A DNA stretch of 64,000 bases. Source: a virus. Both the position numbers and the translations under genes were made by a program. This document shows, in pieces, positions 3,924-39,130 of this stretch; the stretch's first letter is position 1, and the number at the start of each line of letters is the position of its first letter. The notes under the pieces were generated by a model. That model was not told where the DNA came from. It ran no database searches and worked only from the letters and a program-made list of their open reading frames with translations. The stretch lies in IMG/VR virus record IMGVR_UViG_3300043446_000617, positions 1 to 64,000 of that record; one strand, given 5' to 3'.

Positions 3924-4136
3924 ATGGCGTATTCACGCAAAACAATATCCAATGAAGGAGACAGGGTTGTTCTGGAGAAAGCCGAAGCAAGGGAAATATT
4001 CCGTTCTTGGCAGACAACCAGAGATAACGACTTTGTTCGTTCCAGACTTGAAAGGTGTGAACGAATCTATGGGACTGGTGCTAGAGATAGAGTCCGAAAT
4101 TACATGAGTTTAATGAAAAATGGAACAATTGAATGA
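3924..4136 (+). CDS. Conserved small basic phage protein
   Basis: 70 residues. The central stretch EKAEAREIFRSWQTTRDNDF and the ERCERIYGTGARDRVR block are shared with the right copy (36660-36872); 10 of 70 positions differ. The charged helical composition suggests a nucleic-acid or protein-binding role. Its TGA overlaps the ATG at 4133, and the methyltransferase frame starts just before. I cannot name the family with confidence. Confidence 0.75.
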   Translation: MAYSRKTISNEGDRVVLEKAEAREIFRSWQTTRDNDFVRSRLERCERIYGTGARDRVRNYMSLMKNGTIE

Positions 4137-4977
4137 CCTGGTTAATCAGCAAAGCCTTAATGAACTCGCTCTCTTCGCAGGCGCAGGCGGTGGAATCCTT
4201 GGGGGACACTTGCTTGGATGGAGAACAGTCTGTGCCGTCGAATGGGAACCCTATCCCGCAAGCGTATTGTGCGCCAGACAAAATGACGGCCTTCTCCCGC
4301 CTTTCCCGATTTGGGATGATGTACAAACCTTTGACGGAAGACCTTGGAGAGGCATTGTTGATGTCGTATCGGGCGGGTTTCCATGCCAAGACATCTCAGC
4401 CGCAGGAAAAGGGGCAGGAATCGATGGAGAGCGGTCTGGAATGTGGGGAGAAATGGCGAGGATCATTCGTGAAGTACGACCCAGATACGTCTTCGTGGAA
4501 AACTCACCAATGCTCACTTCTAGGGGGCTTGGACGAGTTCTCGGGGACTTGGCCTCAATGGGGTTTAATGCGAGATGGGGAGTGTTGGGAGCAGCTGACG
4601 TTGGAGCGCCACATCAGAGGGATAGGATTTGGATTGTCGCCAAATGGCCTGGACACCTTCCACACGCCCAACACGACAGGATTGGACGGTGGGAGCAACA
4701 GCAGGAAAGCCTTAAAAAAGAGGCAAGAAAAATGGCCCACGCCCGTATGTCAAGACTCTCGCCATGCAATCAGCCGACACCTAGACCCGAACAACACGTA
4801 CTGGAAGAGCAATCTTGGGGAAGTTGTAATGAGTTTAGAGCCAACCCCGAATGGCCGTCTGAACCCAACGTGGGTCGAGTGGTTGATGGGATGGCCTCAA
4901 GAGTGGACAGACTTAAAGCCATTGGTAATGGACAAGTCCCATTGTGTGCAGCTACCGCATGGAGAATCTTGAAATGA
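4120..4977 (+). CDS. C5-cytosine DNA methyltransferase
   Basis: 285 residues from ATG 4120; the start homologous to the right copy is TTG 4129. Motif I is LALFAGAGGGILGGHLLGW; motif IV holds the catalytic Cys (GGFPCQDISAAGKG); motif VI is VFVENSPML; motif VIII is HQRDRIWIV; and motif X is RLKAIGNGQVPLCAATAW. Together they make a complete Dcm-type enzyme that transfers a methyl group from SAM to C5 of cytosine. Phages use this to escape host restriction. The target-recognition region (about 175-245) is short. A second frame (4133-4972) overlaps nearly the whole gene. RusA follows in an ATGA overlap. Confidence 0.9.
   Translation: MEQLNDLVNQQSLNELALFAGAGGGILGGHLLGWRTVCAVEWEPYPASVLCARQNDGLLPPFPIWDDVQTFDGRPWRGIVDVVSGGFPCQDISAAGKGAGIDGERSGMWGEMARIIREVRPRYVFVENSPMLTSRGLGRVLGDLASMGFNARWGVLGAADVGAPHQRDRIWIVAKWPGHLPHAQHDRIGRWEQQQESLKKEARKMAHARMSRLSPCNQPTPRPEQHVLEEQSWGSCNEFRANPEWPSEPNVGRVVDGMASRVDRLKAIGNGQVPLCAATAWRILK
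4133..4972 (+). CDS. Alternative-frame protein overlapping the methyltransferase
   Basis: 279 residues, +1 frame relative to the methyltransferase. The ATG at 4133 sits in an ATGA overlap with the stop of the preceding gene, the usual coupling in this operon. The product looks protein-like: AGFHAKTSQPQEK, SFVKYDPDTSSWKTHQCSLL, TWPQWGLMRDGECWEQ, then LNPTWVEWLMGWPQEWTDLK. These segments resemble an uncharacterised phage protein family with WPTP and WLMGWP motifs that I recall only from memory. The right copy keeps the same frame open (36869-37861) despite a net 153-base difference. Function unknown; it may be a restriction- or methylation-related partner. Confidence 0.55.
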   Translation: MTWLISKALMNSLSSQAQAVESLGDTCLDGEQSVPSNGNPIPQAYCAPDKMTAFSRLSRFGMMYKPLTEDLGEALLMSYRAGFHAKTSQPQEKGQESMESGLECGEKWRGSFVKYDPDTSSWKTHQCSLLGGLDEFSGTWPQWGLMRDGECWEQLTLERHIRGIGFGLSPNGLDTFHTPNTTGLDGGSNSRKALKKRQEKWPTPVCQDSRHAISRHLDPNNTYWKSNLGEVVMSLEPTPNGRLNPTWVEWLMGWPQEWTDLKPLVMDKSHCVQLPHGES

Positions 4978-36659: not shown

Positions 36660-36872
36660 ATGGTTTATTCAAGAAAAGTTGTATCAAATGTTGGAGACAG
36701 AGTTGTATTGGAAAAAGCCGAAGCAAGGGAAATATTCCGCTCTTGGCAGACAACCAGAGATAACGACTTTGTTCGTGCCAGACTTGAGCGTTGCGAAAGA
36801 ATCTATGGAACTGGAGCAAGAGATCGAGTCCGTTTTTATATGCGTCAAATGAAAGAAGGACAAATTGAATGA
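36660..36872 (+). CDS. Conserved small basic phage protein
   Basis: 70 residues, homologue of 3924-4136 (EKAEAREIFRSWQTTRDNDF, ERCERIYGTGARDRVR). Stop TGA overlaps the ATG at 36869, the start of the alternative frame in the methyltransferase gene. Confidence 0.75.
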   Translation: MVYSRKVVSNVGDRVVLEKAEAREIFRSWQTTRDNDFVRARLERCERIYGTGARDRVRFYMRQMKEGQIE

Positions 36873-37866
36873 GTTGGCTAATCAGCAGGGCCTTAATGAA
36901 CTCGCTCTCTTCGCAGGAGCAGGTGGAGGCATTCTCGGAGGACACCTCCTTGGATGGAGAACAGTCTGTGCAGTTGAATGGGAGCAATACCCAGCTAGCG
37001 TATTGTGCGCAAGACAAAATGATGGGTTTCTCCCGCCTTTCCCGATTTGGGATGACGTTCAAACCTTTGATGGAAGACCTTGGCGAGGAATTGTTGATGT
37101 CGTATCTGGCGGGTTTCCATGCCAAGACATCTCAGCCGCAGGAAAAGGTGTCGGAATCGATGGAGAGCGGTCAGGAATGTGGCGAGAAATGGCGAGGATC
37201 ATTCGTGAAGTACGACCCAGATTCGTCTTCGTGGAAAACTCACCAATGCTCACTTCTCGGGGACTTGGAGCCGTTCTCGGAGACTTGGCCTCAATGGGGT
37301 TTGATGCGAAATGGGGAGTGTTGGGAGCAAACGACATTGGAGCGAACCATCAGAGGGACAGGATTTGGATTAGAGGAGAACAAATGGGCAACTCCGACAA
37401 CCATGGACAAACTTCCTCCGAAGTCTGCCCAAGCTTTGGAGAAAGAAGCAACACAAGCTCGACCTGGCAGAAGCAAACCTGCCAATCTAAGGGATCAGGT
37501 GAGCAATATGCAGAACTGGCCTACCCCGAACGCATGGGATGGCAAGAGAGGACCTCGGAGCGAGGAAAATCTGAAGAACAAGAAGCACCAAATCAACCTG
37601 ATAACTGCAGTCAAACAAGCGGAGCGGGAGAAGCTTTTGCCAACACCAAACGCTCGGGATTGGAAGGACGGAAAGACTGCGGGAAACAGGAAGTCACCTG
37701 GACTTGGGGTGGTGGCGCACCAATTGGAAACAGAGACTGGTGGGCAACTGAACCCAACGTGGGTCGAGTGGCTCATGGGGTGGCCGCTCGGATGGAGCGA
37801 ATTAAAGCCATTGGTAACGGACAAGTCCCCTTGTGCGCTGCCTCCGCATGGAGAGTCCTGAAATGA
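36865..37866 (+). CDS. C5-cytosine DNA methyltransferase, TTG start
   Basis: 333 residues. Motifs as in the left copy: LALFAGAGGGILGGHLLGW, GGFPCQDISAAGKG, VFVENSPML, NHQRDRIWI, IKAIGNGQVPLCAASAWR. A stop lies just upstream in this frame and no ATG precedes motif I, so TTG 36865 is the likely start, sharing AAGGA with the ATG at 36869. The target-recognition part is longer than in the left copy. Overlapped by 36869-37861. Confidence 0.88.
   Translation: MNELANQQGLNELALFAGAGGGILGGHLLGWRTVCAVEWEQYPASVLCARQNDGFLPPFPIWDDVQTFDGRPWRGIVDVVSGGFPCQDISAAGKGVGIDGERSGMWREMARIIREVRPRFVFVENSPMLTSRGLGAVLGDLASMGFDAKWGVLGANDIGANHQRDRIWIRGEQMGNSDNHGQTSSEVCPSFGERSNTSSTWQKQTCQSKGSGEQYAELAYPERMGWQERTSERGKSEEQEAPNQPDNCSQTSGAGEAFANTKRSGLEGRKDCGKQEVTWTWGGGAPIGNRDWWATEPNVGRVAHGVAARMERIKAIGNGQVPLCAASAWRVLK
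36869..37861 (+). CDS. Alternative-frame protein with WPTP repeats over the methyltransferase
   Basis: 330 residues, ATGA-coupled to the gene before. It contains three variants of one module: WATPTTMDKLPPKSAQALEK, WPTPNAWDGKRGPRSEENLK and LPTPNARDWKDGKTAGNRKS, each followed by a Leu-containing helix. It ends LNPTWVEWLMGWPLGWSELK. The repeat structure in this frame argues for true coding. Also shares SFVKYDPDSSSWKTHQCSLL with the left-copy frame. Function unknown. Confidence 0.6.
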   Translation: MSWLISRALMNSLSSQEQVEAFSEDTSLDGEQSVQLNGSNTQLAYCAQDKMMGFSRLSRFGMTFKPLMEDLGEELLMSYLAGFHAKTSQPQEKVSESMESGQECGEKWRGSFVKYDPDSSSWKTHQCSLLGDLEPFSETWPQWGLMRNGECWEQTTLERTIRGTGFGLEENKWATPTTMDKLPPKSAQALEKEATQARPGRSKPANLRDQVSNMQNWPTPNAWDGKRGPRSEENLKNKKHQINLITAVKQAEREKLLPTPNARDWKDGKTAGNRKSPGLGVVAHQLETETGGQLNPTWVEWLMGWPLGWSELKPLVTDKSPCALPPHGES

Positions 37867-38291
37867 CATTCATGTTGACCTACATTGTCTATGGTGAGCC
37901 AGTAGGCAAAGGCAGACCAAGGTTTGCTAGAAGGGGCAAATTCACCTCTACCTATACGCCACAAAAGACAAAGACTTACGAAGATGAAATCAGGATGATG
38001 GCAAAGGCAGCTATGGGTGCTTCAGAGCCTTTAGACACGCCTATAACAGTCGCAATTTATATCAGAGTTGGAATACCCGCATCCTACTCAAAACAGAAGC
38101 GCAAAGACGCATTGTCAGGAATCATCAAGCCCATGAAGAAGCCCGATCTAGACAATGTAGCCAAGTGCTTTTTGGACTCCATGAATGAAATTGTCTATCT
38201 GGATGACAAACAGGTAGTCAATCTCCATGTGACAAAGGTTTATGCAGAAACCCCTGCAGTAGAAGTAATGGTTAAAGAGGATTTAACATGA
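37863..38291 (+). CDS. rusA: RusA-type Holliday junction resolvase
   Basis: 142 residues from ATG 37863, overlapping the methyltransferase stop. VYGEPVGKGRPRFARRGKF and MKKPDLDNVAKCFLDSMNEI, VYLDDKQVVNLHVTKVY hold the acidic catalytic residues. Homologue of 4974-5402; the sequence has drifted more than its neighbours. Confidence 0.9.
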   Translation: MTFMLTYIVYGEPVGKGRPRFARRGKFTSTYTPQKTKTYEDEIRMMAKAAMGASEPLDTPITVAIYIRVGIPASYSKQKRKDALSGIIKPMKKPDLDNVAKCFLDSMNEIVYLDDKQVVNLHVTKVYAETPAVEVMVKEDLT

Positions 38292-39130
38292 GTAACCCAT
38301 TTGAGATTATTGAACCGACCTGCATTAGCTTCTCAGGAGGCAGAACATCGGCATTCATGCTTTACAAGATACTAGAGGCTCACGACATGAGCCTGCCAGA
38401 GGAAGCAATCGTCTGTTTTGCCAATACAGGCAAGGAATGTGAGGAAACCTTAGAGTTTGTCCATGCCTGCGAAACAAATTGGGGTGTAAAGATTAACTGG
38501 CTTGAATACAAAGCTCACGAAATCCCAAAAGAGCGTTTCAGAGTCGTTACCTATGAAACTGCAAGTCGTAATGGCGAACCTTTTCTTGAGTCAATCAGCC
38601 AACATGGGAAATTTAATCTTCCAAACCCTGTTGCCAGGTTCTGCACAATTAACATGAAGATTCGTGTCATCCATCACTTTTTAAAGTCTTTGGGTTGGCA
38701 ACATAACGAAAACATGGACTGGGTTGGCATTCGAGCAGATGAACAAAGACGAGCCGCTAAGATTGACCGAAGCAGGACACCTTTGGTTGCAGCAGGAATC
38801 ACAAAGGAAGATGTTGGGAAGTTTTGGAAAAATCACTCTTTCGACCTTAAATTGCCAAATAACAATGGGGTAACGATGCATGGAAATTGTGATTTGTGCT
38901 TTTTAAAACCTGCTCACCAAATCCAGTCCCTGATCCAAGAAAAACCTGAAAGAGCATTATGGTGGATGAAAGTAGAAGAGCTTGCAAGTGATTCAAGCCA
39001 GACCTATGGCGATGGAGCAAAGTTCCGCAAAGACCGCCCAAGTTATGCAGAAATGCACAAATATGCATTGGCTCAGACAGATATGTTTGACCAAAACGAA
39101 GAGGGAATTGCTTGTTTTTGTGGTGACTAA
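38288..39130 (+). CDS. PAPS-reductase-like PP-loop protein
   Basis: 280 residues, ATGA overlap with rusA. PP-loop ISFSGGRTSAFML near residue 13, ANTGKECEETLEFV, then Cys-containing ARFCTINMKIRV, GNCDLCFLKPAHQI and ACFCGD. This is the phage phosphoadenosine-phosphosulfate-reductase-like group of N-type ATP pyrophosphatases. True sulfate reduction is unlikely in isolation; a nucleotide or DNA sulfur-modification or nucleotide-transfer role is possible. Absent from the left copy. Confidence 0.78.
   Translation: MSNPFEIIEPTCISFSGGRTSAFMLYKILEAHDMSLPEEAIVCFANTGKECEETLEFVHACETNWGVKINWLEYKAHEIPKERFRVVTYETASRNGEPFLESISQHGKFNLPNPVARFCTINMKIRVIHHFLKSLGWQHNENMDWVGIRADEQRRAAKIDRSRTPLVAAGITKEDVGKFWKNHSFDLKLPNNNGVTMHGNCDLCFLKPAHQIQSLIQEKPERALWWMKVEELASDSSQTYGDGAKFRKDRPSYAEMHKYALAQTDMFDQNEEGIACFCGD

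Follow-up and report, generated by a model that had tools for sequence, protein, structure and literature searches.

The window, that is, the whole 64,000-nucleotide stretch of viral DNA that was analysed, holds two copies, left and right, of a C5-cytosine methyltransferase (MTase) gene. In both copies, a long open frame in +1 of the MTase frame lies almost wholly inside the gene. The MTase frame (frame 0) is called ORF1 and the alternative frame ORF2. The features are as follows.

3924..4136, plus strand: upstream 70-aa gene, left; its TGA overlaps the ATG of ORF2 (ATGA)
4120..4977, plus strand: ORF1, left, catalytic C5-MTase, 285 aa (PF00145, E = 6.8e-32; phrog_363; M.HhaI alignment), with motifs I FAGAGGG at 4174, IV PCQDIS at 4381, VI ENS at 4498, VIII RDRIWI at 4618 and X GNGQVP at 4924
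4133..4972, plus strand: ORF2, left, proposed specificity subunit, 279 aa, ATG start (phrog_1008, E = 1.6e-27; homologue conservation; selection tests)
4631..4858, plus strand: variable (module) region of left ORF2, without nucleotide match to the right copy there; modules start at about 4661 (HTPNTTGLDGGSNSR) and 4733 (WPTPVCQDSRH)
4859..4915, plus strand: motif-IX-like segment of left ORF2, LNPTWVEWLMGWPQEWTDL, by resemblance to C5-MTase motif IX only
36660..36872, plus strand: upstream 70-aa gene, right; overlaps the start of right ORF2 (ATGA)
36856..36860, plus strand: Shine-Dalgarno-like AAGGA, 8 nt before the ATG of ORF2 and 4 nt before the TTG of ORF1
36865..37866, plus strand: ORF1, right, catalytic C5-MTase, 333 aa, TTG start (PF00145, E = 7e-31; phrog_363)
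36869..37861, plus strand: ORF2, right, alternative-frame protein, 330 aa, ATG start (phrog_1008, E = 6.5e-27)
37367..37747, plus strand: variable region of right ORF2, three modules, at 37385-37516 (opening with WATPTTMDKLPPKS), 37517-37636 (WPTPNAWDGKRGP) and 37637-37747 (LPTPNARDWKDG)
37748..37804, plus strand: motif-IX-like segment of right ORF2, LNPTWVEWLMGWPLGWSEL, by resemblance

A sequence-only reading had reported an 840-base +1 frame through nearly the whole MTase gene and a frame of the same kind, 993 bases long, in the right copy, and the coordinates of both were exact. It was also right about the TTG start of the right MTase, about the start of the second frame in an ATGA overlap, which holds in both copies and involves the stop of the 70-aa gene, and about the difference of 153 bases between the copies (330 - 279 = 51 codons). 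This difference exists because the variable regions (4631-4858 and 37367-37747) are different sequence: nucleotide identity is 88% and 78% in the flanks, and the variable regions are unrelated.

Homologues were gathered via the MTase frame alone, which gave 80 viral and 7 bacterial loci and, with the window copies, a set of 89. The +1 frame spanned at least 85% of the gene in 87 of the 89, the two homologues without an open +1 frame being extraction artefacts. Stops in the frame in close relatives, which would have counted against the overprinted pair, were thus not what we found. After synonymous-codon shuffling (n = 300), the mean longest +1 run was about 110 aa, and in most homologues few of the 300 shuffles (often 0 or 1) matched the observed stop count. 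The right copy alone was less unusual, 53 of 300 shuffles matching its openness; its own openness is little proof, and the proof is conservation across homologues. As a control, 30 canonical C5 MTases had 6-36 stops in +1, and in none did the longest run exceed 49% of the gene.

Since ORF2 lies in +1, codon position 2 of ORF2 is the wobble position of the MTase, so that conservation of ORF2 residues requires conservation of the synonymous sites of ORF1. We compared 132 dereplicated homologues with neighbouring genes of the same loci in the same identity class. For pairs at 65-70% MTase amino-acid identity, the identity of 4-fold third positions was 0.689, versus 0.395 in the neighbouring genes. 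At 4-fold sites that differed, no stop was observed in the alternative frame, versus about 599 expected (60-70% class), and the other changes in this frame were more conservative than expected.

The contribution of each frame was resolved by region: in 14,998 aligned segments from 250 genes, every possible single change was classed by what it does in each of the two frames. In the catalytic region (motifs I-VIII), the transition rate was 0.143 for changes synonymous in ORF1 and nonsynonymous in ORF2, 0.020 for changes nonsynonymous in ORF1 and synonymous in ORF2, and 0.350 for changes synonymous in both. Both frames are therefore constrained in this region, ORF1 more strongly. In the variable region the order was inverted, with 0.024 for changes synonymous in ORF1 and nonsynonymous in ORF2 versus 0.213 for the reverse class (0.118 for changes synonymous in both). 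ORF2 is therefore the selected protein there and ORF1 is free to change. Constraint was again found in both frames at the IX/X end. The pairs used in this substitution test are not independent of one another; despite this, the change of sign of the constraint within one gene is an internal control. In this overlap, selection is inverted from region to region, and the active frame of each segment can be read from that inversion.

These results demonstrated that the alternative frame is a real coding sequence, truly overprinted on the MTase gene. The proposal of a true overprinted pair is supported: the second frame is under strong purifying selection, and the frame-specific tests contradict the objection that such selection would not exceed expectation. 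A further ground named for refutation, the lack of homologues outside MTase overlaps, did materialize: no free-standing ORF2 was found among 352 homologous ORFs in 347 loci. The reading as a pair stands nonetheless, as this absence does not outweigh frame-specific selection; it is also what one would expect of a protein that functions only together with the overlapped MTase.

The order of elements in ORF2 is an N-terminus MSWL(F/Y/I)S, SSSWKTHQCSL, TWPQWGLMRNGECWE, the module array and LNPxWVEWLMGWPxGWTDLKPL. Each module opens with (W/F/L)(P/A)TPxAxD (WPTPxAxD for short), and what had been noticed as protein-like repeats (WPTPNAWD, LPTPNARDW) proved to be the starts of interchangeable recognition-like modules. 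There are 1-5 modules per locus, with a median length near 36 aa. Module clusters, defined by mutual-coverage clustering (single linkage had merged modules), recurred at more than one place in the array and between lineages whose catalytic identity was as low as 26%; modules one and two of right-copy ORF2 match such recurrent clusters. In 124 pairs with less than 55% catalytic identity, common modules were 68% identical in the ORF2 frame versus 29% in the ORF1 frame. No shared variable region was detectable in 4024 of 6499 pairs with catalytic domains at least 85% identical. The variable region of ORF2 is thus modular and constrained in the ORF2 frame only. As judged from sequence comparison, module swapping, which includes the two window copies, is the behaviour of target-recognition domains (TRDs), recognition of DNA being inferred. 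Tandem exchangeable modules, as expected from multispecific phage C5 MTases, are present, though without data on DNA recognition; contrary to expectation for such enzymes, they do not share a polypeptide with the catalytic motifs but sit in the +1 frame. A module resembling GRLDEWGGSSNPFRGTEI was common to the otherwise divergent ORF2 of three loci from Pseudomonas, Microcystis and Vibrio phages (L002, L009, L010).

No match to ORF2 was obtained in Pfam, and a PDB search with an ORF2 profile gave no convincing match, with one spurious-looking hit at 0.005. Two AlphaFold2 models were poor (pLDDT 56-57, pTM 0.23-0.24), and no fold could be derived from them. A catalytic motif was looked for in ORF2 and none was found.

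ORF1 tested as a member of PF00145, with motifs I, IV (PCQ), VI (EN), VIII (RxR) and X (GN) located. For the METHYLTRANSFERASE link, its alignment to M.HhaI stopped at motif VIII (query 13-173). Between VIII and X, ORF1 did not show the expected TRD and motif IX in its frame, and a motif IX in frame 0 was absent from 501 loci except one with swapped frames (L271). With its variable region free of constraint in frame 0, ORF1 lacks a constrained TRD, and it lacks a canonical motif IX. A motif-IX-like string was present in +1 in about 450 of the 501 loci and essentially never in frame 0. In a PSSM test, however, the segment LNPxWVEWLMGWPxGW of ORF2 scored no higher than shuffled controls (not significant), and hhalign aligned motif X alone and not the IX-like segment. 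This segment precedes motif X in the loci where ORF2 carries X. It can be said to resemble motif IX by position and appearance only, homology not being statistically proven.

In about eight natural variants (L296, L313, L428, L436, L208, L083, L055, L089), ORF1 stops past motif VIII, 4-5 codons past it in L428, L296 and L313 and later in the others, and ORF2 continues without a change of frame across the IX-like segment as far as motif X. Since X lies in ORF2 in these variants and in ORF1 in the window, motif X may occupy either ORF. The presence of the remaining motifs on the second ORF, as a two-polypeptide enzyme would demand, was thus met for X (about eight loci) and for IX by resemblance only.

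A fusion of I-VIII with the IX-like motif in a single frame was sought and was found in no locus but L271 (1916-2893), where both frames swap near the end: the ORF1 frame enters DWVEWLMGWPIGW and ORF2 ends at LNPTGSSG. This swap is consistent with one indel or a sequencing error near the 3' end. In some loci (e.g. L342, L266), a regular expression for motif X matched in frame 0 as well as in frame 1; these double matches were dismissed as noise. In L083 (3291-3641) and L055 (3363-3710), the third frame holds an HNH-like ORF with zinc-finger cysteines, situated after the IX-like segment of ORF2 and before X, so that further frames are open there; hidden HNH insertions in mycobacteriophage methylases (PMC11855218) may be compared. 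In a Gallionella MAG (L186 / L505-L506), the N-terminus of ORF2 was in frame with motifs VI-X of ORF1, complementary pieces being in the other frame; this is a frame-shifted, probably decayed prophage copy.

The ATG of ORF2 commonly lies 4 nt past the ORF1 start, as in (A/G/T)TGAATGAG. When the ORF1 start is about 20 nt upstream, the ORF1 codons ahead of the ORF2 ATG contain a Shine-Dalgarno sequence (e.g. AAGGAGAATTTAAATG). In a second subtype, in which ORF2 starts more than 60 nt inside ORF1, an SD-like motif was present at 38 of 73 starts versus 14% at random positions. In the absence of expression data, this SD excess favours independent initiation of ORF2 over frameshifting.

We propose that one stretch of DNA encodes a two-polypeptide C5 MTase, in which ORF1 is catalytic and ORF2 assembles with it and sets specificity; this we hold to be likely, although neither biochemical nor expression data are available. 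ORF1 would be the catalytic subunit. It has motifs I-VIII and, in most members (the window among them), motif X, and its part between VIII and X would be passive filler. ORF2, with its own ATG, would be translated separately, its C-terminal half carrying an array of interchangeable recognition modules and the motif-IX-like segment. The two proteins would assemble and ORF2 would choose the DNA sequence or sequences to be methylated. Complex formation, recognition of DNA by the modules, multispecificity and the biochemical role of ORF2 are all inferred. As to history, also by inference, the second ORF of an AquI-like split enzyme may have grown upstream until it covered the catalytic region, and the first ORF may have grown downstream, across the module region, as far as motif X. 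The passive filler of ORF1 and its early stop in variants with X in ORF2 fit such a history.

Three other explanations were weighed. That the second frame is untranslated, and is kept open and conserved-looking by conservation of the MTase, codon bias or nucleotide-level constraint, can draw on the mirrors of motifs IV and VI (AKTS, WKTHQ), which partly follow from the MTase motifs, on a weak mirror match given by a canonical MTase (L563, E = 5e-5, but with 3 stops) and on the unremarkable openness of the right copy. Yet the frame does not survive synonymous shuffling and is closed in canonical C5 MTases, wobble sites vary far less than those of neighbouring genes, changes in the alternative frame are more conservative than expected, and in the variable region it is the alternative frame that is conserved and the MTase frame that is free. 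We give this explanation practically no credence; chance or a mirror frame is ruled out by the shuffles, the canonical control and the inverted substitution pattern. Programmed +1 frameshifting past motif VIII, with ORF2 made as a C-terminal extension of ORF1 in one fused enzyme, would connect catalysis to the recognition modules and the IX-like segment, and loci such as L296 would yield a complete I-VIII-TRD-IX-X chain. But ORF2 is constrained upstream of any shift, in motifs I-VIII (0.350 for doubly synonymous changes versus 0.143 for those altering ORF2 alone), it has a conserved ATG with an SD excess, and the window type would need a second, backward shift for motif X, which makes frameshifting very improbable.

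ORF2 could also be real but unrelated to methylation, for instance an anti-restriction protein, an inhibitor or a DNA-binding protein overprinted by happenstance. The lack of a fold or family match, the poor structure models and the lack of direct evidence for a complex leave room for this. It is nevertheless unlikely, since ORF2 is never apart from the MTase in 347 loci, its modular region sits where ORF1 lacks a constrained TRD, and in the variants motif X is carried by ORF2, ORF1 ending past VIII. The preferred reading, ORF2 as specificity subunit of a two-polypeptide MTase, has points against it as well: the TRD of M.EcoHK31I is predicted in the large subunit, the opposite assignment (PMC3404938), and no role has been assigned to the N-terminal ~160 residues of ORF2.

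Homologues occurred in phages of Proteobacteria, cyanobacteria, mycobacteria, lactobacilli and the human gut, at least hundreds of phage contigs carrying the locus, with an ORF2 of about 200-400 aa. Bacterial loci were found in about 8% (31/398) of sampled Pseudomonadota genomes, a count that includes some mirror or decayed matches. A phage-wide class of C5 MTases with the specificity subunit encoded as an overprinted mix-and-match module array in +1 of the catalytic gene seems to us a fairly probable generalization. If it is true, specificities would be changed or added through exchange of DNA cassettes, for which an open passive catalytic frame is the sole requirement, methylation specificity might be predicted from the short modules of this cassette system, the lack of a recognition domain in these MTases would be explained, and gene callers would have seen only one protein of each pair.

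M.EcoHK31I, whose small subunit is encoded within the large-subunit gene in a different frame, is the nearest described case. This natural two-polypeptide C5 MTase (YGGCCR) has motifs I-VIII and X on the large subunit, where the TRD is predicted, and motif IX on the small one (PMC3404938). The window ORF1 likewise has I-VIII and X; the second polypeptide has a segment that only resembles IX. Three things differ from M.EcoHK31I: the recognition-like region lies in the second frame and is built as an array of modules, none of the annotated records that we examined showed an REase partner, and the group is spread phage-wide. Our model suggests re-examining the location of the TRD in M.EcoHK31I. 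The alpha/beta C5 MTase M.AquI (CYCGRG) has I-VIII on one polypeptide and IX and X on the second, and the variable region is described as divided between its two subunits (PMC3404938). Its motif layout is that of L296, L428, L436 and L208; unlike in M.AquI, ORF2 overlaps nearly all of ORF1, and the window has motif X on the first polypeptide, ORF1, instead.

Multispecific C5 MTases of Bacillus phages (e.g. SPR, H2) have tandem TRDs (PMC8936443). These lie in frame in a single polypeptide, whereas the modules described here are in a second, overlapping frame. The module array in the second frame, the near-complete overlap and the phage-wide spread are new as a combination, and we did not find an overlapping specificity subunit of phage C5 MTases described in the open-licence literature. 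Type I HsdM/HsdS systems differ from a C5 pair by adenine methylation, a different fold and a trivial overlap. They have a separate specificity subunit with interchangeable recognition regions, the EcoKI genes overlapping by 1 nt (PMC3510504), and work in this respect like the proposed ORF1/ORF2 pair.

Among the annotated phage loci compared, no record had both frames annotated as genes. ORF2 is omitted or mislabelled by annotators because it lies inside another gene; it is annotated alone, as 'hypothetical protein', in e.g. Pseudomonas phage phPA-G and Komagataeibacter phage phiKX1. The phrog_1008 profile, which matches ORF2 and spans the IX-like segment to motif X, is labelled 'DNA methyltransferase', in contrast with the lack of a detected catalytic motif in ORF2. 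The alternative-frame protein is matched by phrog_1008, phrog_26627, phrog_27243 and phrog_35493, the annotations of which probably need correction.

The contig itself (virus record of 68,218 bases) consists of two related ~33-kb phage genomes in tandem (1-34000 and 34200-64000), 66-92% identical in aligned blocks. It represents either prophages in tandem or two relatives that were joined by the assembly. A PAPS-reductase-like gene is present at 38288-39130, downstream of the right copy and not of the left one, and such a gene also lies downstream of the MTase in phage C72C1 (L013).
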